Origin: a virus
Reading direction: 5' to 3' (one strand)
DNA length: 26,488 nt
IMG/VR virus record: IMGVR_UViG_3300021960_000435
Span: 1 to 26,488 of that record
The notes below the pieces were generated by a model. The model was not told the origin of the DNA. It made no database searches and was given only the letters and a program-made list of their open reading frames with translations. Positions within the stretch are counted from its first letter, which is position 1; every line of letters starts with the position of its first letter. Below are positions 2,668-26,488 of this stretch, one piece after another. Position numbers and translations under genes: made by a program.

Positions 2668-5600
2668 TTACATTAAGTTAATTAATGCTTCAATAATATG
2701 TTCACCTACATCAGTGTCTTCCATTGCTTTACCAAGTATTCTACCTGCTGGAGCATCGTTATCTACCTTTGCATGTCCTTTTACATCTGAACTTACAAGT
2801 AAGTCACCTTTGACTACAGGACCAACAACTTTAACAGGTACTCTACCTGCTAATGCTATTGCTGGATGGCTGTCGTTATCACCTGCATCAGCATTCATTA
2901 AATGTGCTGGATTTGTACTAACAACTCCTGCTACACTATGATGATCTGCTTCTTCACATGCTTTAACTTCTTTCTCACCACCAAAACATACCACAGTACC
3001 TGGCTCTAACACTTCATCTGAAGCATATCTTTCTGCCAAGTCGGCGTATTGAGCCGATGTTGCTGTTCCACTAAATGTGTTTGCGTACATAGTACCAAAC
3101 TTAACACTACTTGAACCAATGTTGTATGTTCCTGAAGGACCAGTTGCTAAAATATTTCTAGCGGTAATGTCACCACTGAATGTACCACCTGGGAATGGAT
3201 TACCTGAAGGACCAGTTGGACCTGTCGCACCCTGTGGACCTTGAGCACCTGTGGCACCCTTCTGTCCTTGTGGACCTTGAGCACCTTGTGGACCAGTTGG
3301 ACCAGTTCCACCTTGAGCACCTACTTCACCTTTCTGTCCTTTAGCACCTTGAGGTCCAGTTGCACCCTGAGGTCCAGTTGCACCTTGAGGTCCTTGAGCA
3401 CCTGTATCACCTTTCTGACCTTGTGGTCCAGTTGGTCCTTGAGCACCTGTATCGCCTTTGTTTCCTTGTGCTCCTTGTGGTCCAGTTGCACCAGTTGGGC
3501 CTGTGGCTCCTTGTGCACCTTGATCACCTTTCTGACCTTGTGGTCCTTGAGCACCTGTAGGTCCTACTTCACCTTTAAGTCCTGAACTTGAACCTACCCA
3601 GTTACCTGATGCATCAATGACCTGAGTCGAATCTGCATAGAAACCAGCGGCTGATAGGGCCGCATCTGCTGTCCATCTATCAGTAGTTTCATTCCATAAG
3701 AACTGTTTATTAGTTGAGTCACCCCTTTCAATTTCAATACCACTGTTTTCACTTGGTGCACCAGTAACGTCACTATTAAGTACAATAATGTTGTCACCTG
3801 TTGAAACTGTTGTAGAATTAACTGTAGTTGTTGTTCCATTAACTGTAAAGTTACCTGAAACTACAATGTCACTGCTAAATGTTTTAGCACCGCCAATTGT
3901 TTGTGAACCTGATGTTCTAACAACTGTACTATCAACATCTAAACTGTCAGCACTTGCTGTAAGACCGTCGCCACCAACTACATTGATAATACCTGAACTA
4001 TATGTAAGACCAGCACCTGCTAATCCTGAGTCAGTTGCAAATGTTAATGTACCGCCATCATCATCATATGTTGCTGTAATACCATCGCCATCTACTACTA
4101 ATGCATTAACTCTATCATCTACTCTTTCATTAGTAAAGTATAAGTTAGTTGAACCTTCTGCTAAATTGTCAGTGTTAAATGCACCCATATTAACTGCAAT
4201 GTCGTCTGCATTAACAGTAATACCTGTGCCTGCACCAACATTTAATGTTCTGCTAGAAGCAATAGTACCACCGCCTGTTAAACCGGAACCTGCTAATATA
4301 CTTACACTTGAGTGATCAATGTGTTCGTTTGCTACAAAGTTGTTTAAAGCATCATGGTCTATAGCACTATCATCAGTACTAATAGTACCACTTGATATGT
4401 TAATACCTGTACCACCACTAAAATGTGCTCTTGTTTCAGAAGCACTTGGGCCTGTATAAGTAATTACACCAGTTGTGCTGTTATATGCAAGTGATCCATC
4501 GCCGCCTGCATCTGTAACACTAACTGCACTTCTGGCTCTTGCATCTGTGTAATACAAATTGGTTGAACCTTCTGTGATTTCGTCTGTGTTATCTTTACCT
4601 GCTACTTGTGAATCAACGTATGCTTTAACTGATTGCTGTGAAGGAAGTCTAGTAGCACTATCTGATGACATGTCATCTTCGTCGATTAATGCCGCTGTAA
4701 TCCTAGCATCTGCTCTTGCGTTAGTGAAATATAAGTTTGTCGAACCTTCACTTAAATCATCAGTGTCATGGTTAGCAATACTGCTAACAGTACCTGTAAC
4801 TGCGCCAGTTAAATCACCTTCTAAAGTTCCTGCTTTGAATCTTTCATTACCGATAGACCATTCGCTTTCTGAAACGTCCCATACCAATGACTTGATTGAT
4901 CCTGCAATATTGGCTTCAAAACCAGCATCTTGTGATGCTCCGTCACTGTTTACGCGGAAAATGTTATCAACAGTTTCAGTAGTAGTTGAATTAACAACTG
5001 TTTGTGTACCGTTAACTGTTAAGTTACCGCCAATAGTAACGTCAGATGCCAATTTAGCATCGATTCTTGCGTCTGCTCTTGCGTTTGTAAAGTATTGGTT
5101 TGAACCTTCTGACAAACTTCCTGTATCTGGTAATACAGCATTTACTCTAGCATCTGCTCTTGCATTTGTAAAGTATAAATTTGTTGATCCTTCTGATACG
5201 TCATCAGTGTCGCCACTTAATTCGCTCAATGCGTCTTTAGTTGCCACCTGAGCATCAACGTATGCCTTGGTTGCACCATCTTGTGCCTGTACTGGATCAT
5301 CTAGGTTGTTAATACTGTTGCTGTTCATGTTGATGTTACCACCTTGTACAGTAGCACCACCACCTGCTGTGCTGATTGTTTTACCTGCGGCTAAAACTAT
5401 GTCTGATTTCATTTGAATCTGACCGCCAGAAGTAATTTCAACGTCACCTGAACCGCTTGTTGTAATACTTAAATTTTGGTTAGTGTCTGCACTGACTGTG
5501 ATTGTACCTGAATTATCAGATATAACTTGTTGTCCATTAACATATAATGATCCTGGACCTACAAATACGTCTTTCCACACATTACTTGCACTACCTAATT

Positions 5601-6327
5601 GGTATGTATTGTTTGCACTTGGTATTAAGTTTCCTGAAAATGCTTCGTGGTTTACAGATAATGAAACAGTACCTGTAGTACCGCCTCCACTTAAACCAGA
5701 ACCTGCTGTAACACCTTCAATATCACCTGCGTCATTTGTAAAACTAATTACACCAGTACTACTGTCGTAACTTAAATCTCCGCCTGCACTAATTTTTCCT
5801 CTTATAACTGAATCAGCAATACCTAATGTACCTGATGTTGCAGTTAAGTTTGTTCCTGCCATTCCAGACGCCAAGTCTGCAATGCTTTCTTTCTTTGAAC
5901 TGTTGTCTGTGGCATCAATAATTGCAATGCTGTCTGCACTTACATCTACTGTTGCCGCTGTTAGTTCGTTTAAGTCGAGTGCTAATGTAACATCTCCACT
6001 TGAGGCTCCGCCACTTAAACCGTCTCCTGCTGTAACACTCTCAATATCACCTGCTGATGTAGTATTAGTAATTGTCAATGTGCCATTGTCATCATCATAT
6101 GCTAAACTAATACCTGCACCTGCTGTAAGTAAATTACCTACTGCATCTTCGATGTTTTCTTGGGTATTGATTTCTGAGTATTTTGCTAGTCTATGACCAC
6201 CTGCTGTACTACCATCGTGTACGCGGATGGTATTATTAGTAGTATCGATCGTGATCTCACCTGCTAGACCTGTAAAGGAACTGTGTTCTGCGGCTGTACC
6301 TCTTCTTCTTTGAATCGCGTATGCCAT
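2668..6327 (-). CDS. Giant collagen-like tail fibre protein with Mtd-type N-terminus
   Basis: This is a 1219-aa fibre. Residues 1-50 ([30 protein letters not shown]) resemble the N-terminal domain of the major tropism determinant family, a trimer-forming attachment module. Residues 50-910 are beta-rich repeats: the element [14 protein letters not shown] recurs about five times, with variants such as [12 protein letters not shown], alternating with GGTG-type turns and the [11 protein letters not shown] element. About 917-1045 is a collagen-like GXY tract (GPQGAQG, GQKGD) with no stops. The last 170 residues ([35 protein letters not shown]) form a globular end like the C-terminal domains of other marine phage fibres, perhaps an intramolecular chaperone of peptidase G2 type. 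It has its own promoter (6473-6480) and terminator (2621-2650). It probably binds host surface; whether it is a long, short or head fibre cannot be told here. Confidence 0.85.
3195..3580 (-). repeat. Collagen-type GXY coding repeat, fibre 2
   Basis: About 40 Gly-X-Y triplets give a 9-nt periodicity built from few variants ([28 protein letters not shown]). Q-K-G and P-T-G units repeat at DNA level. Identical blocks occur in the other fibre gene, so this is a likely site of unequal exchange. Confidence 0.85.
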
Positions 6328-6502: not shown

Positions 6503-9500
6503 TTAGACTAAGATTTCAATTACACCAGGAGCGGCTTCTGTTTTAGTTTCCAATGCTCTACCAATAATTTGTAATGGACTTAGCGATTTAGGATCTGCGG
6601 CAACCATACCGTGTCCTTCTAAGTCACTTGCAATAATTATATCACCTTTCTTAACAACACCGCCTACTTTACATGGCACTCTGCCGCGTAATGCTATAGA
6701 CACTACATGCTCACTATCCAGTTCTGCATTCATTAAGTATGCTGGATTTGTACTTACTACACCAACTACTGCATGACTTCCTGCTTCATTTACTGCTGTT
6801 ACTTCTGCTTTACCGCCTATTACAACAACTGTACCTGGTTCATAACTAGCATCTGCTTTATAGTTTTCTGCCAAGTCAGCATATTGAGCCGAGGTTGCTG
6901 TACCACTAAATGTGTTTGCGTACATTGTACCAAATTTAACACTACTTGAACCAATATTATATGTACCACTTGGTCCTGTTGCTACAATGTTTCTTGTGGT
7001 TATGTCACCACTGAATGTACCACCTGGGAATGGATTACCCGATGGTCCTGTTGGTCCAGTTGCACCAGTTGGGCCTGTACCACCAGTTGCACCTTTTTGT
7101 CCTTTATCGCCTTGTAAACCTTGTGGACCAGTTGGACCAGTTCCACCTTGAGCACCTAATTCTCCTTTTTGTCCTTTATCGCCTTGGCCACCTTGGGCAC
7201 CTTGAGCACCTTGTAAACCTTGAGGTCCTACTTCACCTTTCTGTCCTTTTGCACCTGTTGGACCAGTAGCACCCTGAGGTCCTGTTGCACCAGTTGGGCC
7301 TGTGGCTCCAGTTGCACCTTGAGGTCCTGTTGCTCCTTGTGTTCCTTGTGTTCCTTGTGGTCCAAGATCACCTTTTTGTCCTTTATCTCCAGTAGCACCG
7401 GTTGGTCCTTGAGCACCTACTTCACCTTTCTGTCCTTTTGCACCTTGTGGGCCTGTGGCTCCAGTTGGTCCAGTAGCACCTTGAGGTCCTGTTGCTCCTT
7501 GAGGTCCTTGAGCACCTGTATCACCTTTTTGTCCTTTATCACCTGTTGGTCCAGTTGGGCCGCTGTCTGCAGGTACCCAGTCATAGTCTGAACCATTCCA
7601 ACTCAATACTTCAGATGAGTTTGCTGAACCAGTGTTAAGATGTGTATCTACTCTGGCATTGGTATAATATAAATTTGTACCTTCACTTAAATCTGATGTG
7701 CTTCTAGTACTTAATGCACCTGCTTGTAATTTACCACTTGCATCAAATAATACTGTTGAACCAGGGCCTACAATACTGTTATTAAATGTTGCACTTGCAC
7801 TAAATGTTTTAGCACCGCCAACTGTTTGTGACCCACTAGTTCTAACAACTGTGCTGTCTACTGCAATATCGTCTGCATTTACTGTAATACCGTCACCGCT
7901 ACCAACGTTTAATGTAACAGCACCACTTGTACCACCACCTGTTAAACCGTTTCCAGCACCTACGCTCTCAATGTCGCCTGCATCGTTTGTGAAACTGATT
8001 TCACCTGTTGAACTATTATAACTTAAATCGCCACTTACACTGATAGCCGCTCTGGCTCTTGCATCTGTGTAATATAAATTTGTTGAACCTTCTGATACGT
8101 CATCAGTGTCGCCGCTCCAACTAATAACACCTGTGCCGTTATTATACGATATTGGCGCACTAGCACTGATTAATGCTCTAGTTGTTGCATCACTTGGTGC
8201 GTCAATTGTTAGTTGAGATCCAGTGATAGAAGTTGTTATGTTAGTACCGCCTGCTATTGTAAAGGTATCTGTGTTTGTGGTTGCTGTATAAGATGTAGAA
8301 TCTGCATTTATTGTTTTGATAATATTCTGACTGCTACCTAGATCTGAATTTGTAACAGTGATAACGTTTGCTGATTGTGATACAGTAACACCAGTACCTC
8401 CTGCAATTTTTCTAAAATTATGATATGTTGTTGCACCTGCTGTTCTAGAACCACCGTATACTGATTCTCCACTTGCCGCTACTGATTCAATTGAGCCTGA
8501 TATGCCTCTGTTTGTTAATGGATATTCTGTGCCATTTATAATACCGTATATTTCGCTATCTCTAGCAAAAATTACACTATCAGGTGTGTCGCCATCACCA
8601 AATACATTTGTACTTGTTTGCGAATCATCGTCTGCACCTGTGGCATATTGAGTTGCATTAGTAATGTCTTTTAATAATAAATGATTAACACCTATACCAC
8701 CGTTTTCAGTGGTTGTTAATAGTGTTGCATTTGTAGATGCATTAGCATCATTTAATTGATCTCTAACTACAAATCCTGAATTAGATAATGTGTTGCCTTT
8801 TGCAATATCAATAAAAACAATCTCTTCTGCTTCAACTCTTAATATTCCTGAGCCGGCTCTAATAGAAGTTTTAAAATTTGTTCCTGTATCAAAGAATATA
8901 TCACCGCCTGTGTCAAACTCAATATCATTTTCTTTGTATATACTGCTACCGATTGTTAATGTACCGCCGCTGTTTATAACAGGACTTACACTGGAATCAA
9001 ATGTTAATTGTGATTCTACTGTTTGTGCGACACCTGTTCTTCTAAGTACGGTTGAATCTACTTGAATACTATCTGCATTAACTGTGATACCACCACCGCC
9101 TGCTCCAACAATATCAAATGTTCTATCTGAATTTAAATCACCGCCACCTGTTAGACCGTTACCTGCTGTTAAATTTCTTGTTAGTGGTGCCTTTGTGGCA
9201 ATTGAATTTGTTAATGTTGTATTAAGTGCGGCATCGTTACCTAATGCTGTTGCAATTTCATTTAATGTATCTAGTGTTGCTGGTGCACCACCTTGTAAGT
9301 TTGCAATAGCCGTTTCTACATAGGCTGTTGTGGCTACTTTTGTACTATTATCACTTGCACTTTGAGTAGTTGCAGTTGTACTTGCGGTACCTGTTAAATC
9401 CACAGTACCTGTAAATGTTTTTGCGCCACCTATAGTTTGAATGCCGACAGTTCTAACAACTGTGGTGTCAACAGCAATATCACCTGCGGTGTAGTCAATA

Positions 9501-10699
9501 CCATCACCGCCAGTTAATTCTGCATCTATTCTTGTACCAACTGCACTATTAAAATCTGTAATTTGTGAACTTGGTATTGCTATGCTTACATCTGCCGCCG
9601 TTGTTAATTGTCCTTGTGCGTTCACAGTATAAGTCGGTATTGCTGTAGCACTACCATAACTTCCTGCACTAACGGCTGTGTTAGTGATGCTTACTGTACC
9701 AGAACTTGTAATAGGATTCGGTGACGTTGTTATGCCTGTGCCACCTGTTACACTTACTAGTGTACCTGGTGCAAAATTAGTAACGTATGCTGTTGTGGCT
9801 ACTTTTGTACTATTATCTGCACTTGCTAACGTTGGTGCTGTTAATTCGGTACTAAAATCTGTTGCTTGAGTAATTTGTGAAGGTAAACTAAATGTACCAT
9901 TACTGCTATTATAATCTATTTCACCTGATGTACCGGCAAATAATGCTCTTACTTCTGTGTCAAAATCTGTAACTTGCGTATGCGGTATTGCTATTGCTGT
10001 TGTTGATGCACTTGTTATTCTACCTTGCTGATCAACTGTGAATGTGCCTACACCTGTTGCACTTCCGTATGTATTAGGAGTAACTGCTGTGTTGTCTAAA
10101 TTAAAAACAAGTGTGTTAGCAACATCGTTATAAACTGCTGTTATGCCTGTACCACCGGAAGCCATTGCGCCAACTCTGTCGTCGACTGCTTCTGAAAAAT
10201 CTGTTATCTGAGAGGCCGGTATTGCTATGTTTACATCAGCGGCCGCTGTTAATTGTCCTTGTGCATTTACAGTGAATGTTGGTATTGCTGTAGCACTACC
10301 ATAACTTGCGGCTGTTACCGCTGTATTTGTAATGTTGTATACGCCAGCACTATATGTTAAGCCTGTACTTGCTGAAAAATGTGCTTGTACTTCTGCGGCA
10401 CTTGGACCGGTGTATGTTAATGTATTACCAGAGTATGCAACACTTCCGTCGCCACCAGCATCTACAACATTTAATACTCCTGTGATAGGTGCTGACGTTG
10501 TTAATGCAGTACCGTCCCAAGTTATTGTTGCATTTGCAGTTGTTTGACTTAATTGTAAGGTTGCTGTTGCACCAGTTCTATCATAGTTGACAATTATGCT
10601 GTCATCTGCAACTCTGAGTTGATCTGCTCTTTCACTGATTGATTGGGCATTAAATATTATATTACCCGGTGATCTAAATATACCTTTTTTGTCTGCCAT
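6503..10699 (-). CDS. Giant collagen-like tail fibre protein
   Basis: This 1398-aa fibre is related to the next gene downstream. Its N-terminus ([20 protein letters not shown]) differs from the Mtd-like start of the other fibre, so it may attach elsewhere on the virion. Residues 60-1040 are beta repeats. Three or more copies of a [20 protein letters not shown] unit followed by IAIPxSQITDF occur in the first third, then [12 protein letters not shown] units, then [12 protein letters not shown]-type units. A collagen-like GXY tract spans about 1047-1217. The last 180 residues share a nearly identical block with the other fibre ([15 protein letters not shown] through SAQYADLAE) and then diverge moderately. 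The late promoter is at 10731-10738, 32 nt upstream. Likely function is host recognition or virion decoration. Confidence 0.85.
7050..7560 (-). repeat. Collagen-type GXY coding repeat, fibre 1
   Basis: About 55 Gly-X-Y triplets, longer than the tract in the other fibre. It uses the same units ([24 protein letters not shown]). In collagen-like phage proteins such tracts form trimeric stalks. The 9-nt DNA periodicity makes length variation between relatives likely. Confidence 0.85.
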
Positions 10700-17519: not shown

Positions 17520-20500
17520 TTAGCCGCCGGAAGAGGCGTCTGCTCCGTCTTGTTTAACATACTTGGAAAGTTCGTTAGTTAAATCACTAACTTTCTCTAC
17601 TAGTTCTTTTGTTTGATTGATGTATTCTTTGTCTGCCGCATTGAGATTTGGATATCTCCTTTCCATTGTTTCCAGCATTGTGGATAATGAAGTTGTTTCA
17701 CCCAGTGTTAGACCATCGACTATTTTATCAACGAGTGCTTTATTTAATACTTCCATATCAGCAAGTGCATTACTGTCTTTACTAAAATACTTAGATCTAT
17801 TTTTACCAACACTATTGAAAACATACGCACCATCAATTCCGTCTTCTCCTCCAACAACTTTGGATAATGGACTACTACCAATTGTTTCTTGAATTAATGC
17901 ATTTAATTCATTTCCCATTATAAATTGTCCAGGATTGAATCCTTGCATTGCACTGATATTTTGTGATGATCTTGCAAATTGCTCTATTCGATATCGGTCT
18001 GCGGCACTATTACTTCTTTCACCGATAGACGCACCATCGATAACTATATCATCCATAATCACGTCCAGACTGAGGCCTTTCCCAAGTTTTTCAAGATATT
18101 TAGCACCATTTATCTTAATGTTGTTAGCATCTGCGTTTTCTAAAAATGCGGCATAACTATTATAGGCTTGCTCGTTTATAGATACAGCCTGTTCATATCT
18201 TTGTTGCATCATTTCTTGCATTCTTTCTGCTCTTGCTTTATCTTTTTCAGATAAATCACTTTTCATTACTGTTCTGCCTTTTTTATTATCGAAATCAAAC
18301 AATCTAAAGAGGTCGTCTTCAAAATCTGTATCTATATCGTACAAAGAACCGGTAATAGCATCTATTAAACCTGGGTAGTCTTTTCCAAAGGTTGCTAATA
18401 TTTCATCTGAACCCGAGGTAATGTCCTTGAACATCGTCGATGTATCTCTGCCGGCTCTTCTAGATAAGTTTTGACCAATTCCTGTTGTCTCGTAAGCACC
18501 TCTTACTTTGCTTGTGATCATTTGATTTGTTAATACATTTGCTTCACTACCGAAGAAGCCTTCGGTATAACGACCTGCCTGTTGATTGTACTGACCAGCA
18601 CTTATTTTTCCACTGATAAGTTGGCGAGCATAAATTTCACCAACCTTGTCACTGAAAAGCATTCCCTTGGTTGCCTTGTTTATGGAAATTGCCATGTCGT
18701 CCATTAAATCGCCAAAAAATCTACCTATAGTTTTAGCCAATGTGTTATTTGCTAATTCTTTGTTAAGGTCATTGCCTATTGATATGGCAAAATCTGATAT
18801 GTTGTCTACAAATGCAGTTCTGGCTTCTTCAAGTTTTTTTTCAAATACTTCTTTGCTATCGCCTTGTTGACCTCCAAACATTACATTCATGTATTCTGTG
18901 AAGTTTTCAAAAGCCTTGTATATCCCGGTTTCTCTACCAAACACATTGCCGACCAATTCTGTTATTCCGTTAGATAATGATACTACACTATCATTAAAGT
19001 CATATGTATTGTCAGACATTTTATCAAAACCAAGTGCTGTCATTAACACAGTTTTTCCAAAATCACCTATGGTTGCTGTGCCCTGATTAACAATAAATCC
19101 TAATTTATTAAATGTACTCAGCATACTAAATCTTGAGGTGTCTAATGCTTCGTCAAATTTTGCAAGTTGTTCGCCACTTAACTTTGCAATGTTTTTGGCC
19201 AAGTTTTGTATACCCGCCGCACCATCTACGCCGGCTGTGAATAATGATGATGAATATGCAAGTTCATCTGCGGATAGGTTTCTGAGTAGTAGTGCAAGTT
19301 CTCTGCCTGCACGTTTTGGCAGTTGACCTGTTGTCTGAAAATCATTTGCCAATCGTTCTACGCTTTCATATAAACCAGGGAATGCTGTTATAAGATTCAT
19401 TGTTTCAGCGGAAAGACCCGCAGAACCTTTGGATATTGCTTCAAATAATGGATTTGTCAAATCTTCTAATCCAGCCGCTTTTAATTCTGCTGATATTATT
19501 CTAGTTGAATCAGCAATGGCTTCACCATTAGCACCTAACTTAATACCTGTTGCTCTCATCTGATCTACATAATCTTCTTGAACCTCAGCACCATCTCTAA
19601 GTTCTTGTTCAGACATACCGGCGGCTTGAGCAAATCGCCTAATCATTCTGACACTTTCTGTGAAACTGCTTTGTAGGTTGTTACCCTGATTCTGAATCAC
19701 CATACCAAACCTACGTCTATATTCTAATTCAGCCATCATAGAACCTAACGCATCTTCCGCCGTAAATCCTAATTCTAATAATCCACCACTTGCAATTAAA
19801 CTTTTAGAATACAAGTCTCCAAAACCTTTAGCAGTTAGTGTTCTCATTATCTTACTGTTACTTCGAGCAAATTCTCCAAATTCCTCAAGGCTCATTCCTG
19901 CTAAATTGGCCGCCCTGGCTACATTTTCCACAGGATGTGTTAAACCAACTATTCCGCCTGTGCCTGCGGATAACGCCTGATTATAAAATTTAAACACATC
20001 TAAAAACTCATTTTTAATGTAATTAGCGGCAGTAAGTATTGCGGAACCCAATACGCCGGCAGTGGCCTTAAGTGCATCAAAGGCAAAGCCTAACGCAAAT
20101 CCAGCCTTAGAACCCATGCCTGCCATACTCATTAATCCGGTTGAACTGTTGTTCAAATTGTTTAAGATTTTATCTAGATTTTTATCGTTTTCAGTCATGT
20201 TTTTATTCAACTTGTTAAGTTGACTGATACCGTCTGACTGTAGATCCTGTAAATGTTTTAATCCTTTATCTATTGTTTGAGTAGACCCTTTGTCTCTTCT
20301 GGTTTGTTTTTTGTCAATGTCTTTGAAAGTTTTCTGCAGAGTTTCAATTTCTTTTTTTACTGCTTTTTGATTCTTGTCATCTAGTTTACCGCCTCTTGCT
20401 AATATTTCAAGGATTGTTCTGGTTTTGGTTGTTTCTTTGGCCATGCCTTTCAGCACATTCTCAACACTGACTTGACCAGCCGCAGTGGCCCATGCAGGTA

Positions 20501-20552
20501 TGTTGTTTATAGTACTCTGACCTTCTGGACCGTTAATTATAATGTCTGCCAT
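17520..20552 (-). CDS. Tape-measure-like tail protein, copy A
   Basis: This 1010-aa protein has a helical charged N-terminal third (coiled-coil-like about 35-135). A hydrophobic Gly/Ala segment follows (about 140-180: MAGMGSKAGFALGFAFDALK, ATAGVLGSAILTAANYI), then a long helical body. That build is typical of phage tape-measure proteins, which set tail length and pass into the host. Residues 262-321 align with 250-310 of the second protein at the right edge: GFTAEDA...RR/IRRFAQAAGMSEQELRDGA against GVTLDDA...ESIKQLRMFSTALGISTDELRQGA. T4 gp29 is about 590 aa. It lies divergent to a gp26-like chaperone gene, 115 nt apart, as the second copy does. AGGA precedes the ATG. Another large structural role cannot be excluded. 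Confidence 0.7.
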   Translation of the reverse strand: MADIIINGPEGQSTINNIPAWATAAGQVSVENVLKGMAKETTKTRTILEILARGGKLDDKNQKAVKKEIETLQKTFKDIDKKQTRRDKGSTQTIDKGLKHLQDLQSDGISQLNKLNKNMTENDKNLDKILNNLNNSSTGLMSMAGMGSKAGFALGFAFDALKATAGVLGSAILTAANYIKNEFLDVFKFYNQALSAGTGGIVGLTHPVENVARAANLAGMSLEEFGEFARSNSKIMRTLTAKGFGDLYSKSLIASGGLLELGFTAEDALGSMMAELEYRRRFGMVIQNQGNNLQSSFTESVRMIRRFAQAAGMSEQELRDGAEVQEDYVDQMRATGIKLGANGEAIADSTRIISAELKAAGLEDLTNPLFEAISKGSAGLSAETMNLITAFPGLYESVERLANDFQTTGQLPKRAGRELALLLRNLSADELAYSSSLFTAGVDGAAGIQNLAKNIAKLSGEQLAKFDEALDTSRFSMLSTFNKLGFIVNQGTATIGDFGKTVLMTALGFDKMSDNTYDFNDSVVSLSNGITELVGNVFGRETGIYKAFENFTEYMNVMFGGQQGDSKEVFEKKLEEARTAFVDNISDFAISIGNDLNKELANNTLAKTIGRFFGDLMDDMAISINKATKGMLFSDKVGEIYARQLISGKISAGQYNQQAGRYTEGFFGSEANVLTNQMITSKVRGAYETTGIGQNLSRRAGRDTSTMFKDITSGSDEILATFGKDYPGLIDAITGSLYDIDTDFEDDLFRLFDFDNKKGRTVMKSDLSEKDKARAERMQEMMQQRYEQAVSINEQAYNSYAAFLENADANNIKINGAKYLEKLGKGLSLDVIMDDIVIDGASIGERSNSAADRYRIEQFARSSQNISAMQGFNPGQFIMGNELNALIQETIGSSPLSKVVGGEDGIDGAYVFNSVGKNRSKYFSKDSNALADMEVLNKALVDKIVDGLTLGETTSLSTMLETMERRYPNLNAADKEYINQTKELVEKVSDLTNELSKYVKQDGADASSGG

Positions 20553-20584
20553 TTCAATTCCTGTAATATACGCATTTTATGATC

Positions 20585-20592
20585 GATAAATA
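20585..20592 (+). promoter_or_regulatory. Late promoter box for chaperone gene A
   Basis: GATAAATAA on the plus strand, 75 nt before the ATG at 20668. It lies upstream of, and faces across, the minus-strand box at 20627-20634, so the two transcripts overlap at their 5' ends. Confidence 0.72.
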
Positions 20593-20626
20593 ACACTAAC
20601 AAATTTAGTGATGCTTCGATAGTTAA

Positions 20627-20634
20627 TATTTATC
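20627..20634 (-). promoter_or_regulatory. Late promoter box for tape-measure-like gene A
   Basis: The minus strand reads GATAAATAT, 74 nt before the ATG at 20552. With the plus-strand box 34 nt away it forms a face-to-face pair, matched at 24730-24767. Confidence 0.72.
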
Positions 20635-20667
20635 GTTTTTATTAAAACATCACATATTGGAGATATT

Positions 20668-21510
20668 ATGACACAAAACACAAGTCCATTAGCAGATTTC
20701 TATAGAAATCCCAAGTTATATGTTTCATTGCCCAGCGGTACTGATTATTATAGTGCAGATGTAGTTGATATGCCTGAAGTAGGCGAACTGCCTGTGTATC
20801 CTATGACAGCAAAAGATGATTTGCTAACAAAAAACCCAGATGCATTATTAAATGGCGATGCAGTAATTAAGTTAGTAAAAAGTTGTGTGCCCAATGTAAA
20901 AAAACCTGCAGAACTATTAGCACCGGACATGGAAACAATTCTTATTGCTATACGTCAAGCAAGTAGCAAAGAAAAATACATGGAAATTGTGAGAACCTGT
21001 CCAGAATGCCAAGCAGAAAACAATTACAGTTTAGATTTAAGTTTGGTAATTCAAAGTGCAGAAGAAGTTATTGCACGACAGGACGTTAATCTATCAAACG
21101 GGTTAATAGCAAATATTTCACCAACAAACTATATTCACACAGTTCAAAGTGCTAAAACCATTATAGAACAAAACAGAAACTTTAGAAACGTTGATGTCAA
21201 TGACAGCGACGAGCAATTAAGGTCACTGGGACAAGCAATGGAACGTTTAAGTGAAATGAACTATCGTGTAATATTGGAATCTATCAATCATATATCAATA
21301 CCAGACGGCGAAACAGTTTCCGACCCTGTAATGATTTCAGAATTCTTAGAAAATGTTGATAAAGAAATTGGTATGGAATTAAATGATGCAGTAAGCAAAA
21401 TAAACAATGGCGGTGTTGTAAAAGAAGCACCAATGTTGTGTAATGAATGCAATCACGAATATACCACATCCATAAACTATGATCCAGTCGGTTTTTTCTT
21501 GAATTCCTAG
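20668..21510 (+). CDS. 26: gp26-family tail/baseplate protein, copy A (short form of frameshift pair)
   Basis: The zero-frame product has 280 aa. It matches the T4 baseplate family that includes gp26: PKLYVSLPSG near residue 16, ELPVYPMTAKDDLLTKNPDALLNG at 40-63 (read as two segments) and KSCVPNV at 71-77. Cys pairs C111/C114 (CPEC) and C258/C261 (CNEC) could bind one metal ion. It ends VGFFLNS-stop, and the FF codons are part of a slippery heptamer (21492-21498), so a fraction of ribosomes should make a 370-aa fusion. In lambda-type tails, such short and long forms are chaperones of the tape-measure protein. The tape-measure-like gene is divergent next door. GGAG stands before the ATG. It is about 2.3 kb from its homologue on the other strand. 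Confidence 0.88.
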   Translation: MTQNTSPLADFYRNPKLYVSLPSGTDYYSADVVDMPEVGELPVYPMTAKDDLLTKNPDALLNGDAVIKLVKSCVPNVKKPAELLAPDMETILIAIRQASSKEKYMEIVRTCPECQAENNYSLDLSLVIQSAEEVIARQDVNLSNGLIANISPTNYIHTVQSAKTIIEQNRNFRNVDVNDSDEQLRSLGQAMERLSEMNYRVILESINHISIPDGETVSDPVMISEFLENVDKEIGMELNDAVSKINNGGVVKEAPMLCNECNHEYTTSINYDPVGFFLNS

Positions 21511-21549
21511 GCAGAGCAGAACCTGAGCAAATTAGGGACTACCTAGGAA
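21492..21549 (+). promoter_or_regulatory. Programmed -1 frameshift site, copy A
   Basis: The heptamer T TTT TTC (21492-21498) is in the correct phase: zero-frame codons are GGT TTT TTC. After a 5-nt spacer, TTCCTAGG (21504-21511) pairs perfectly with CCTAGGAA (21542-21549) over a 30-nt loop. The zero-frame stop TAG (21508-21510) lies in the 5' arm. In the -1 frame the ORF stays open to 21779. The second gp26-like gene has the same arrangement. Confidence 0.87.
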
Positions 21550-21779
21550 CGTTAGAAGAGGACAGAAACAGCATAACCAAATCGATTGCTGACTTTGTTA
21601 TCTATACTGAAGGTTCTATCCCTTGGGAAACAGCATGGAATATTGCTCTTACTGATCAAACTGTATTATTAGAATCATTTACTACTCTAATGGATGCCAA
21701 GTCTGGCAAGAAATCCAAAGATGTTATGACACAGGAAATGATACCTGATAGTGCACCTGAATTGCCATCAGAGGAATAA
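21498..21779 (+). CDS. -1 frame extension of chaperone A (gp51-like position)
   Basis: These 93 codons are read after slipping at 21492-21498, starting LEFLGRAEPEQIRDYL and ending with TAA. The frame opens after a TGA at 21480 and has no ATG, GTG or TTG before a Met codon near its end, so independent initiation is unlikely. The sequence matches the extension of the second copy: FL-x-RAEPE, YL, ED, VIY-x-x-GS, W, L, then a Lys-rich AKSGKK end against AKAGKP. It is mostly helical. In lambda, the T part of GT binds the tape-measure and tail-tube proteins; the same role is inferred. The last 12 nt overlap the 3' end of the opposing 298-aa gene. In T4, gene 51 follows 26, but homology of this segment to gp51 is not shown. 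Confidence 0.82.
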   Translation, partial: LEFLGRAEPEQIRDYLGTLEEDRNSITKSIADFVIYTEGSIPWETAWNIALTDQTVLLESFTTLMDAKSGKKSKDVMTQEMIPDSAPELPSEE

Positions 21780-22664: not shown

Positions 22665-22713
22665 GTTAATATTTATGTGTTAATGTTTATAGACACTTCG
22701 TGTCTTTGCCAAC

Positions 22714-22763
22714 TGCAAACTTCATTCACTTCGTTCATTTCAGTTTTTGTTTGCAATTTTTTT
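22714..22763 (+). terminator. Plus-strand terminator-like hairpin
   Basis: TGCAAAC (22714-22720) pairs with GTTTGCA (22749-22755), followed by a run of seven T. The loop is long (28 nt) with imperfect inner pairing around TTCG. It may end the plus-strand transcript from chaperone A, in which case that transcript would be antisense to the whole 298-aa gene. It may also end a small RNA beginning near 22665. Confidence 0.45.
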
Positions 22764-22922
22764 AATAAAGAAGTTATCATGTATGTTGAGTCATAATTCA
22801 CCTACTACAGGTGAATCAATGAGGTGTCATCATGTGATGCATCGTCATCTCTAACCCAGGTGCTATAAAGAGGTGGTGAGCCTTATCCCCTCATACACTA
22901 CTGTCACGAATCTCACGGAAAC

Positions 22923-22963
22923 CAATATAACCTGGTAGAGTTCAGTTATATTGACTGCAGGTT
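22923..22963. other. Two mutually exclusive hairpins
   Basis: CAATATAAC (22923-22931) can pair with GTTATATTG (22945-22953), 9 bp. The overlapping AACCTG (22929-22934) can instead pair with CAGGTT (22958-22963), 6 bp. Both pairings cannot form together, a layout found in switches and attenuators. The strand is not known. Confidence 0.4.
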
Positions 22964-23177
22964 GCTTTTCTCAGAGCCTGATCATTTAATACTGTTTGTC
23001 GTTTGTCTGTATTTCATTTAACGCCATACATTCCAGAATCTCGCACCGGGTGTTTCCATTGCCGGATTGTCAAAGAAATCGATATTAATAGCCTCGATGG
23101 GGTGGTGTATGGACCTATGTGTGCCTGTATTATGCCCTGGTATGATTGTGTTCTAACTTTCGTTTTAACACTCCTAC

Positions 23178-23600
23178 TTATAAGGTCTTTAAGGCCTCTT
23201 TGAGGATTTTTGAACCACCTACTCTGACGTTGATAATTCCGTTATAATAGTCGTCAGTTTCAAGTACTCGCCTCTCGAATTGCTCTCGGGCTTCTATGTA
23301 ACTTGCTACTCCTCGGCTAGGGCAATAGTACAATATTTCTCTACGAAATTTGTCTTCTCCTAGCTCTAATACATCTGCATTAAGATGATCACTACTACCC
23401 CAATAAGTACGCCAGTCACTTTCTTTGTAACCACGTCTTTTATTCTTTCTGCCTTTTAATGGGGGTTTGGTTGTTTTGAACTTGGCAAGTTTTTTGCCAA
23501 CATATTTCATATTGTTAGTTAGGTTTGTGATCAGATATACAAATGCTTCACAATCTTCCGGAAGTGTTGTAACTTCTGTGTCTTTATAATACCAACTCAT
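23178..23600 (-). CDS. GIY-YIG-type endonuclease-like protein
   Basis: At 140 aa it has EAFVYLITNLTNNMKYVGKKL at residues 18-38 (read with its flanks), which fits the GIY...YIG strand-turn-strand (FVYLI ... KYVGKK). A basic loop (KGRKNKRRGYKESDWRTYWG), EDKFRREILYYCP with a possible catalytic Arg, and SYIEAREQFERRVLETDDYYNG carrying the likely metal-binding Glu follow. Similar short proteins are common in T4-like phages and are often called homing or Seg-like endonucleases. Its ATG shares one base with the stop of the chaperone B extension, so it is the last gene of that operon. It may act as a mobile nuclease or in DNA processing. It sits between two duplicated tail modules, a setting where homing could favour rearrangement. 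Confidence 0.68.
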   Translation of the reverse strand: MSWYYKDTEVTTLPEDCEAFVYLITNLTNNMKYVGKKLAKFKTTKPPLKGRKNKRRGYKESDWRTYWGSSDHLNADVLELGEDKFRREILYYCPSRGVASYIEAREQFERRVLETDDYYNGIINVRVGGSKILKEALKTL

Positions 23601-23833
23601 TATAAGTCTTCAGTGGCAGGCTTTCCTGCTTTTGCTTTAAACAAGTCATTAATAATTTTGGCAGTTAATTGTCTTTGCGGTAAACTCATACTCCAGACGT
23701 CGCTCAATGTCAAACTGCCTTGTGCATAGATAACCATTTCAGTTACTTCTTTATTAATGGCTTCGGTGTCTTCATTGAGCTTCCTAAGGTAAGCCACTAC
23801 CTCCTCAGGCTCTGCACGAGCTAGGAAGCCGTG
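23600..23833 (-). CDS. -1 frame extension of chaperone B
   Basis: These 77 codons are read after slipping at 23839-23833: HGFLARAEPEEVVAYLRKLN and onward to AKAGKPATEDL-stop. They align throughout with the extension of copy A (FL-x-RAEPE, YL-x-x-L, ED, VIY-x-x-GS). A GTG at 23797 preceded by AGGAGG could in principle start a 65-aa protein, but the spacing to the GTG is only 2 nt. That start would also remove the part most conserved with copy A, which has no start codon there. Frameshift expression is the better reading. Confidence 0.82.
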   Translation of the reverse strand, partial: HGFLARAEPEEVVAYLRKLNEDTEAINKEVTEMVIYAQGSLTLSDVWSMSLPQRQLTAKIINDLFKAKAGKPATEDL

Positions 23834-23839
23834 AAAAAA
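23779..23839 (-). promoter_or_regulatory. Programmed -1 frameshift site, copy B
   Basis: On the minus strand TTTTTTC (23839-23833) is in phase, with zero-frame codons AAT TTT TTC. GCTTCCTA (23829-23822), 3 nt downstream, pairs perfectly with TAGGAAGC (23786-23779) over a 35-nt loop. The zero-frame TAG (23823-23821) begins in the 5' arm. Stem position matches copy A although the paired bases are partly different, so both arms changed together. Confidence 0.87.
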
Positions 23840-24705
23840 TTTACAGTATTAAAGTTTACAGCACTTTCAAATGTAAACTCTTCTCCTTCTGGTAACTTTT
23901 CACTACAAGGTTCGCATGTTAATTGCATACGTTTTTGGATACCTTTATCGCCCATATCAGTAATAAACCTCTCTAGTTCTTTACCTATAGAGGAATCACA
24001 GTTTTCTAAAAACTCCTGAATATGTTCTTTATCTTTAACTACAACTGGTTCGCTTTCTCCTTCAGAAGGAGGCATAGTAATAGTGTTTACACAATCTACT
24101 AAAATATCAAAGTTTAAATTTGCAAGTTCTATAAAATTGGTATTAAATGCTTTAATTTTTTCTAATTCATCCTCTATATTTGCAATTGATTGTAAACTTC
24201 TTTCGCTTCTAAAGTTGGCAACACCTGCCTTTACAGCAGTTTCATAACTAAAAGGAACCATAGAAATTAATAAACCTGAGTCTGTAGTGAACTCGTAAGT
24301 ATCATCAAGTGTATCCATGTTAGATAAAACTGCTTCTGTGCTAATAATAGCAGATGCATTTTCTGTACATTGTGGACATGGTGCTCCTACATCTAATTCA
24401 TCACCAAATGTAGCACCTTGTATAGCAACTAATAATGCATCAACATCATTAGCAACTAGCCTTCTGGGTGCTAAAATATTAGGTATGCAACTGGCTATGA
24501 CTTGAGCTACTGCTTCACCATTAAGCAAAGCATCAGGATTTTTCATCATGATCTCATCTTTAGCCGTCATGGGGAAAACTGGTAGTTCACCTGTGCTGGG
24601 TAAATCTATTATAGTTTCGTCATAAAATTTACCTTGACTTGGTAAACTAGTATATAATTTTGGCGTCCTAAAGTGACCTACTAGCGGGTTTTGTGTATTG
24701 GACAT
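23821..24705 (-). CDS. 26: gp26-family tail/baseplate protein, copy B (short form of frameshift pair)
   Basis: The zero-frame product has 294 aa and is a clear paralogue of copy A: PKLYTSLPSQGKFYDETIID, ELPVFPMTAKDEIMMKNPDA, LLNGEAV, ASCIPN, and Cys pairs C110/C113 (CPQC) and C264/C267 (CEPC). The middle has diverged, and the copy is closer to the usual gp26 pattern (LPSxGKFY). It ends VNFFTAS-stop at a slippery site, giving a predicted 368-aa fusion, almost the same length as the 370-aa fusion of copy A. It is divergent to the second tape-measure-like gene, 94 nt away. The GIY-YIG gene follows in the operon. A role as tail-assembly chaperone or baseplate hub part is inferred from family and context. 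Confidence 0.88.
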   Translation of the reverse strand: MSNTQNPLVGHFRTPKLYTSLPSQGKFYDETIIDLPSTGELPVFPMTAKDEIMMKNPDALLNGEAVAQVIASCIPNILAPRRLVANDVDALLVAIQGATFGDELDVGAPCPQCTENASAIISTEAVLSNMDTLDDTYEFTTDSGLLISMVPFSYETAVKAGVANFRSERSLQSIANIEDELEKIKAFNTNFIELANLNFDILVDCVNTITMPPSEGESEPVVVKDKEHIQEFLENCDSSIGKELERFITDMGDKGIQKRMQLTCEPCSEKLPEGEEFTFESAVNFNTVNFFTAS

Positions 24706-24799: not shown

Positions 24800-26488
24800 T
24801 TGGCTGACAAAGATAAAAGAATAGAATTCGAACTTCCAGAAGAAGGTTCCAATAGAGGATCAGTTTTCATACCTCCATTAGCAATGGACAGCACTCTGCA
24901 GGCTTTGTTAAAAAATAATGAAAAATTAAAAACAAATCTAGACAAATATCTAATGGCAGTAGCCAGAAAGATGCAAGACAGCGATAAGCAGAGCAAAGCA
25001 TTAGACGATTTAATTAAAACTTTAGAAAAAAAATCAGAATCAACAAAAAAAGAAACAGAAGAAGCAAAAGACACAGTTGACAATTTCTCCCAGTCTGTTG
25101 CTGGCGCCTCAGAAGGTTTAGAAAAACTAGATAAAAACTTCTCCGAATCTTCTGACGAGCTAAGGGAAAAGTCCAATAAGTTAAGCCGAACAATGGTAAC
25201 TCTGAGTAAAGACTTTACTTGGACTCTAAATGCTTTTGATTTTGTTGTTAAAAGTTTGATGTCTTTTGGCACGATAACAGGTGGTTATCTAGTAGCCAGT
25301 GTAAGAAATACAGGTGAAGCTCTTAATAGTTTAACTGATGTAGGTCAGGCCTTTGGTGATGTAACTGGTACTGGTACAAGATCTACCCTAGAAAATATTT
25401 CTGCTATGGGCAGACTGGGTTTAACAGTTGACCAGACCGCTCAGGTTTTTCAAACATTTTCCAGAACAGCCGCAATTTTAGGACAAAGCCAAATTCCAAA
25501 CCTCACTAAGCAATTTTTAGAGCTCACAAATTATGGTGCTGATTTTGGTGTAACACTGGACGATGCCACACAGATATTTCTGGAAGATCAGGAATTCCGA
25601 AGCAGAATTTTAAACAGAGATCAGATGATGGATCAACATCATGCTCGTAGGTCTGTGGAGTCTATAAAGCAGTTAAGGATGTTTTCTACAGCATTGGGTA
25701 TCAGTACAGATGAGTTAAGACAAGGTGCAATGAGTATGCTGGACTCCAACCAGAGTATTCAGTCATTAATAATGAATATGGGTAAGAGAGGACCTGAAGT
25801 AGAAGCCGCCTTGAGCTCATTAGTTGCTGGTTTAAAAGGATCTGGAATAGATGATGAAATTATATCCGGCATTTTAGACGTTGCCTCAGTGGGAGCAACT
25901 GGTGCCAGTGACTTCCTTAACAAATTAATTCCATCTAATCCTGAAGCCTATAAAGCCTTAACGCAAATTGGTTTGGACATCAGGGAGGGAGAACTAAACC
26001 TTGCAGATATGCCCAACCTCATCAGAAGTATTACAAACACTTTTTCAACAATTGATAAAAATGGTAAATTACAGGCTTTGTTGGCAAGTGATGTTGGTGG
26101 TGATTTACAAGGTCCCACTCGGGCTTTGATAAGAAGTTCTCGTAATGCCGAGGAGGCCGCAGACAATTTAGCCAAACTGATCGATCAGACCGGCGTGTCT
26201 ACACAAATGTATGATGAAGTACAAACAGCATTAAATCAGGCCAAAAATTTGTTTTCAAAACTTGTTGCCACTACTAGTGTTTTCCAAGTAAGTCTGGTAA
26301 GCAATATAGGTCAGGGTTTTACAAAATTTATCAAAGATGAGAAAAAAAGAAACAAGGTTATAGAAAACTTTAGTTTGGTCGTGGGTAATATAGGCAAGGC
26401 AATTGGTAAGGTAATAGGCGATTTTATACAAAAAATAGGTGGCGGCGGACCTAACAGTTTGCAAAATGGAATTAACATATTAATAGAT
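24800..26488 (+). CDS. Tape-measure-like tail protein, copy B, partial
   Basis: The frame is open from 24800 to the right edge (563 codons) with no stop; the C-terminus is missing. I use the TTG at 24800 because an in-frame TAA lies at 24785 and GGAG stands seven bases before the TTG; the first in-frame ATG is 28 codons later. The N-terminal part is charged and helical (about 35-130: KTLEKKSESTKKETEEAKDT). A hydrophobic stretch follows (about 140-170), then a helical body. Residues 250-310 align with 262-321 of copy A at 17520-20552. The same order of coil, hydrophobic part and body supports common descent. It is divergent to chaperone B, as copy A is to chaperone A. It may be the second tape measure or a diverged tail-lumen protein. 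Confidence 0.75.
   Translation, partial: MADKDKRIEFELPEEGSNRGSVFIPPLAMDSTLQALLKNNEKLKTNLDKYLMAVARKMQDSDKQSKALDDLIKTLEKKSESTKKETEEAKDTVDNFSQSVAGASEGLEKLDKNFSESSDELREKSNKLSRTMVTLSKDFTWTLNAFDFVVKSLMSFGTITGGYLVASVRNTGEALNSLTDVGQAFGDVTGTGTRSTLENISAMGRLGLTVDQTAQVFQTFSRTAAILGQSQIPNLTKQFLELTNYGADFGVTLDDATQIFLEDQEFRSRILNRDQMMDQHHARRSVESIKQLRMFSTALGISTDELRQGAMSMLDSNQSIQSLIMNMGKRGPEVEAALSSLVAGLKGSGIDDEIISGILDVASVGATGASDFLNKLIPSNPEAYKALTQIGLDIREGELNLADMPNLIRSITNTFSTIDKNGKLQALLASDVGGDLQGPTRALIRSSRNAEEAADNLAKLIDQTGVSTQMYDEVQTALNQAKNLFSKLVATTSVFQVSLVSNIGQGFTKFIKDEKKRNKVIENFSLVVGNIGKAIGKVIGDFIQKIGGGGPNSLQNGINILID

Follow-up and report, generated by a model that had tools for sequence, protein, structure and literature searches.

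A very probable programmed −1 ribosomal frameshift yielding short and long forms of a T4-type tail assembly chaperone

In the G/GT system of phage lambda, a −1 frameshift near the 3′ end of a chaperone gene that lies beside the tape measure gene, upstream of it and co-directional with it, yields a short and a long form of the protein (Xu, Hendrix and Duda 2004). The T4-like tail assembly chaperones (TACs) gp26 (short) and gp51 (long) likewise constitute two forms, but these come from separate paralogous genes, 26 and 51, and not from a frameshift (Vladimirov et al. 2022, as cited in PMC10885494 and PMC12846349). T4 gp26 stops soon after a pair of phenylalanines (FF), ending in EFFELL, at the place where gp51 runs on into an added C-terminal domain; the T4 tail gene region is divergently transcribed, and we found no in-phase heptamer near the end of T4 gp26. 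Further, PMC12846349 reports poly-T slippery sites in T4-like TAC-N genes (see also PMC10885494) and describes, in the Vandenendeviridae (e.g., Pseudomonas phage Adele), a −1 shift at a conserved poly-T stretch where TAC-N ends, the −1 frame being open throughout in all relatives.

Here we describe a locus of this kind in the window, that is, the whole 26,488-nucleotide stretch of viral DNA that was analyzed (IMG/VR record IMGVR_UViG_3300021960_000435). We propose with high confidence, from its sequence, that the T4-type TAC gene in it, gene A, is subject to a programmed −1 ribosomal frameshift and thereby gives rise to a short and a long form. The lambda shift occurs on G GGA AAG, whereas the site in the window is T TTT TTC, and the adjacent tape-measure-like gene, both here and in RaK2-like phages, is divergent from the chaperone gene rather than downstream of and co-directional with it; hence, our claim is that the locus works like G/GT, not that it is G/GT. 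The Vandenendeviridae site differs in being GTTTTT, which is not a full X_XXY_YYZ heptamer, and belongs to another phage family (PMC12846349). The cyanophages P-SSM2, S-RIM8, and S-CRM01 have an in-phase T_TTT_TTC 7 to 10 nt before the stop; they differ in having a −1 open reading frame (ORF) of about 60 codons, as against the 93 of the window, and in having gene 4 upstream, with no divergent tape measure gene visible. As both the T4 TACs and the poly-T sites have already been reported, the frameshift in the window is a feature of a known kind; what is usefully added is that it extends to RaK2/121Q/PA5oct-like jumbo phages and that their annotation mislabels it.

A gp26-like gene divergent from a tape-measure-like gene

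Gene A (20668 to 21510, plus strand) encodes in its zero frame a 280-aa protein, the TAC-N form, with two CxxC motifs (residues 111 to 114 and 258 to 261). This protein matches the PF12322 (T4_baseplate) profile with 53.6 bits against a cut-off of 24.5 (E = 3e-14), a model that is also matched by both T4 gp26 and T4 gp51, as well as phrog_150 (PHROG 150, baseplate hub; E = 5e-16). The best BFVD match of its AlphaFold2 model (pLDDT 89.9) is a predicted T4-like baseplate hub assembly protein (TM about 0.85 to 0.86); gp26 of Aeromonas phage 25 is a weaker fold match in BFVD (TM 0.47/0.61), and a PDB fold search with the same model gave no match. The original prediction had spoken of a T4 baseplate-family protein: the family is borne out by the PF12322 match, but tail assembly chaperone is a better name for the protein than baseplate component.

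The divergent neighbor of gene A (17520 to 20552, minus strand) encodes a tape-measure-like protein of 1,010 aa, so designated from its position and its counterparts: the equivalently placed proteins of RaK2 and Erwinia phage pEa_SNUABM_47 are noted or annotated as tape measure proteins, and the tape-measure-like neighbors in two relatives of the window (L002 and L017) are 40 to 45% identical to it. The same divergent arrangement is seen in RaK2, 121Q, and PA5oct, and a T4-type portal gene comes after the tape-measure-like gene. Farther away on the minus strand (2668 to 6327 and 6503 to 10699), two long proteins with collagen repeats are encoded, both containing BppL_N domains and one also an Mtd_N domain; they are probably receptor-binding or fiber proteins. 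The source of the window appears to be a jumbo-type marine phage.

The slippery site and its conservation

Codons 275 to 277 of gene A are GGT TTT TTC (21490 to 21498), which places the heptamer T TTT TTC (21492 to 21498, plus strand) in the X_XXY_YYZ phase. It is followed by the 5-nt spacer TTGAA (21499 to 21503) and by an 8-bp stem core in which TTCCTAGG (21504 to 21511) pairs perfectly with CCTAGGAA (21542 to 21549), the 5′ arm including the zero-frame UAG (21508 to 21510). The −1 frame is uninterrupted from 21483 to its stop codon at 21777 to 21779; counted from the heptamer (21498 to 21779), the extension comprises 93 codons plus the stop, and tandem slippage is predicted to yield a product of 277 + 93 = 370 aa, whose predicted tryptic junction peptide ends in DPVGFFLEFLGR. 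The extension lacks a start codon over its first 66 codons, the earliest ATG/GTG/TTG being the ATG at 21690, codon 67 from the heptamer. The original prediction had described the heptamer as correctly phased, the spacer and perfect stem as having the stop in its arm, and the extension as startless in its early part; it proved accurate in each respect.

A tblastn search recovered relatives of gene A in 62 phage records, among them RaK2, 121Q, PA5oct, Atu_ph07, Phosso, and XaC1; Salicola phage SCTP-2 was found via the extension rather than the body of gene A. Those of these phages whose records were fetched all have an in-phase T_TTT_TTC 10 to 40 nt ahead of the stop, with the −1 frame open. From IMG/VR, 80 loci were taken. 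Once duplicates had been dropped and sequences grouped at 80% identity, 74 lineages were left (<80% identical to each other), including three wider T4-like relatives. T_TTT_TTC is present in all 70 lineages that have the FF pair, against 8.8 expected from pooled codon usage, and the four lineages without FF (L036, L041, L051, and L060) have in the equivalent place an in-phase A_AAT_TTT, another canonical heptamer. The residue preceding FF is variable (N, S, D, H, G, T, R, or A), and T is nevertheless the last base of its codon in every case; an in-phase T_TTT_TTC does not occur at any of the 18,888 other codon positions of these genes. That the heptamer might not be conserved in relatives had been named among the findings that would count against a frameshift, and this is clearly not the case: a slippery heptamer is kept in 74 of 74 lineages, and hence the site is real.

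Two other explanations of the overlap were considered. One is that it reflects a sequencing error or a decayed gene, as might be suspected from the window being a metagenomic contig and probably composite elsewhere. However, sequenced isolates and numerous independent assemblies share the arrangement, another contig (L001) has a copy of gene A with 100% identity, and purifying selection on the extension (see below) argues against decay; we give this explanation next to no credence. The other is that the −1 shift arises by transcriptional slippage on the T6 homopolymer run at the site, giving mRNAs with an extra U. T6 is a short run for transcriptional slippage, and the four lineages with A_AAT_TTT have only T5 and yet keep a ribosomal heptamer; moreover, the poly-T run is held in a constant phase relative to the codons. 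We accordingly consider transcriptional slippage extremely unlikely.

Outside these lineages, T_TTT_TTC occurs exactly 10 nt ahead of the stop in 77 of 77 distinct cyanophage-type gp26 loci, together with a −1 ORF of the kind annotated as “gp51” in P-SSM2, S-CRM01, and S-RIM8, and it is found in P-SSM2, S-CRM01, Aeromonas phage 65.2, Cronobacter phage LPCS28, and SRB7757. It is absent near the end of gp26 in T4, QL01, 44RR, and ZZ1, which have separate genes 26 and 51. No canonical heptamer was found in the Ackermannviridae-type phages VAP7, K393, and allotria, nor in Cygsa01, all of which retain a −1 ORF after the hub gene and may thus use re-initiation or a weaker slip; Cygsa01 and VAP7 have TAATG at the zero-frame stop. 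Thus, the T_TTT_TTC frameshift is widespread in T4-type chaperones outside T4's own group, covering jumbo phages (RaK2, 121Q, PA5oct, and Atu_ph07), cyanophages, and Aeromonas phage 65.2, and is probably very old. This is consistent with the separate genes 26 and 51 of T4 being a derived substitute for the frameshift. In public records, these loci appear as a hub gene whose small ORF is entered separately, mislabelled, or left out, and the T_TTT_TTC pattern offers a simple rule for mending this annotation.

The −1 extension, its probable translation, and the downstream RNA

The extension, which has a median length of 78 codons from the heptamer across the 74 lineages, is conserved in alignment across relatives and predicted to form four helices. 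Beyond the zero-frame stop, its dN/dS is 0.06 to 0.43 across 12 pairs, mostly below 0.3 (0.26 to 0.43 among close relatives); two further pairs, L052/L064 and L007/L014, are saturated at synonymous sites and stand outside the 12. The extension is therefore under purifying selection. Scans against Pfam and PHROGs assigned it to no family, and a PDB fold search gave no match; hhalign found a weak likeness to the C terminus of gp51 (probability 38%, E = 3e-4, 29 columns), discernible by eye as ..M.P.ER....L.

Such a conserved extension could also be a gene in its own right, reached by ribosomes through re-initiation or internal initiation, with the poly-T run merely reflecting the conserved FF. 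An ATG does overlap or abut the zero-frame stop in 121Q, Phosso, Atu_ph07, Kaldavass, and S-CRM01, and in several records these −1 ORFs are entered as separate genes; in those relatives re-initiation could also supply the extension. In the window, however, the first potential start, at codon 67, lies past the conserved part of the extension, 44 of the 74 lineages have no start codon in its first 20 codons, and FF alone does not force T_TTT_TTC, as is evident from the observed and expected counts given above. We therefore regard a separate gene as very improbable and, as with transcriptional slippage and assembly error, have rejected an internal start as the source of the −1 extension.

Family membership, the slippery site, its conservation, and the selection on the extension all support the lambda G/GT-style programmed −1 frameshift that was originally predicted. 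We infer that slippage takes place with an efficiency such that most ribosomes would end at the UAG at 21508, releasing the 280-aa TAC-N, and a fraction, perhaps with help from the stem that follows, would slip back by one base on T TTT TTC and make the 370-aa TAC-NC with its helical C-terminal domain. If the analogy with lambda G/GT holds, TAC-N might coat the tape measure protein during tail assembly, with TAC-NC tethering to the tape measure protein made from the divergent neighboring gene. Neither form would be expected to stay in the virion. In the PA5oct record, an ESI-MS/MS note accompanies the portal and tape-measure-like proteins and none accompanies the hub gene, which fits a chaperone that does not end up in the virion.

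Among the elements of the proposed signal, the stem is conserved least and, judging by the folds, is kept only in close relatives rather than being one family-wide structure. In the window and its four nearest relatives (L002, L017, L018, and L019, which amount to three distinct lineages, L018 being a near-duplicate of L002), an 11-pair outer stem is predicted, with its 5′ arm at 21504 to 21514, which includes the 8-bp core with the UAG, and its 3′ arm at 21539 to 21549. This stem encloses a 5-bp inner hairpin (21522 to 21536; 21522 to 21526 paired with 21532 to 21536), and two pairs of the consensus fold, one of them in the inner hairpin, are changed on both sides. The stem of the window is mildly unusual relative to shuffles (z of −1.8 over 75 nt, and −2.6 when the 70 nt that follow the site are taken). 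On average over 73 lineages, the corresponding 70 nt form more stable folds than shuffled sequences do (mean z of −1.6, SEM 0.17). On 26 aligned sites, RNAalifold found no consensus structure and pair counting did no better than shuffles. From the stem of the nearest relatives and the average folding excess, a downstream stimulator may well be present, but with a form that varies. Lambda G/GT itself is not known to need a downstream stimulatory RNA structure.

A second gp26-like gene and a probable join in the window

The window has a second gp26-like gene, gene B (23821 to 24705, minus strand; 294 aa), whose product is 33% identical to that of gene A and matches PF12322 (E = 8e-13). It has the same kind of site, a T_TTT_TTC at 23833 to 23839, and a −1 extension of 79 codons from the heptamer plus a stop (23600 to 23839), recognized from the open frame and the alignment. 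Gene B is divergent from a second tape-measure-like open frame (24800 to 26488, plus strand), which is cut by the end of the window and is 49% identical to the tape-measure-like protein of contig L029. A match was also obtained in 42 other records, each of which has a single copy.

Comparisons with other contigs suggest that the two genes come from different phages. Contig L107 matches the window from 17149, with 97.7% identity overall to 23565 and complete identity over 22749 to 23072, and diverges from it at about 23.07 to 23.12 kb, beyond which it follows the A-type contigs L108 and L109. The right part of the window instead matches the B-type contigs L197 and L029, in which the B genes adjoin a portal gene of their own, and a 35-base probe across the join is found in no other IMG/VR contig. 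The window is thus probably a join of the left part of an A-type phage and the right part of a B-type phage near 23070 to 23120, likely through misassembly or recombination in a shared noncoding stretch near 22.7 to 23.1 kb, and gene B probably belongs to another phage. Gene A lies far from the join and is unaffected by it. It is unlikely that the window is a true genome with two complete, oppositely arranged modules (17520 to 21779, and 23600 to beyond 26488), each combining a tape measure protein with a frameshifted chaperone serving it; as the left and right parts match different phages, we dropped the second copy as proof of a two-chaperone phage.

The noncoding stretch at 22682 to 23123 shows 75 to 99% DNA identity across phages that share their proteins at about 30 to 70%. 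Some 28 records of the group contain it, in one orientation or the other; it gave no Rfam match at E <= 1, and no tRNA was found in it. RNAalifold predicts 81 pairs in it, of which 26 show changes in both partners. On either strand, the stability of the fold far exceeds that of column-shuffled controls, making the stretch a candidate large structured RNA. Beside it is a gene for a SegE-type GIY-YIG endonuclease (23178 to 23600, minus strand; PF19835, E = 3e-32), and a gene of this type is located near the structured stretch in many of the compared relatives, in an orientation to the chaperone gene that varies.
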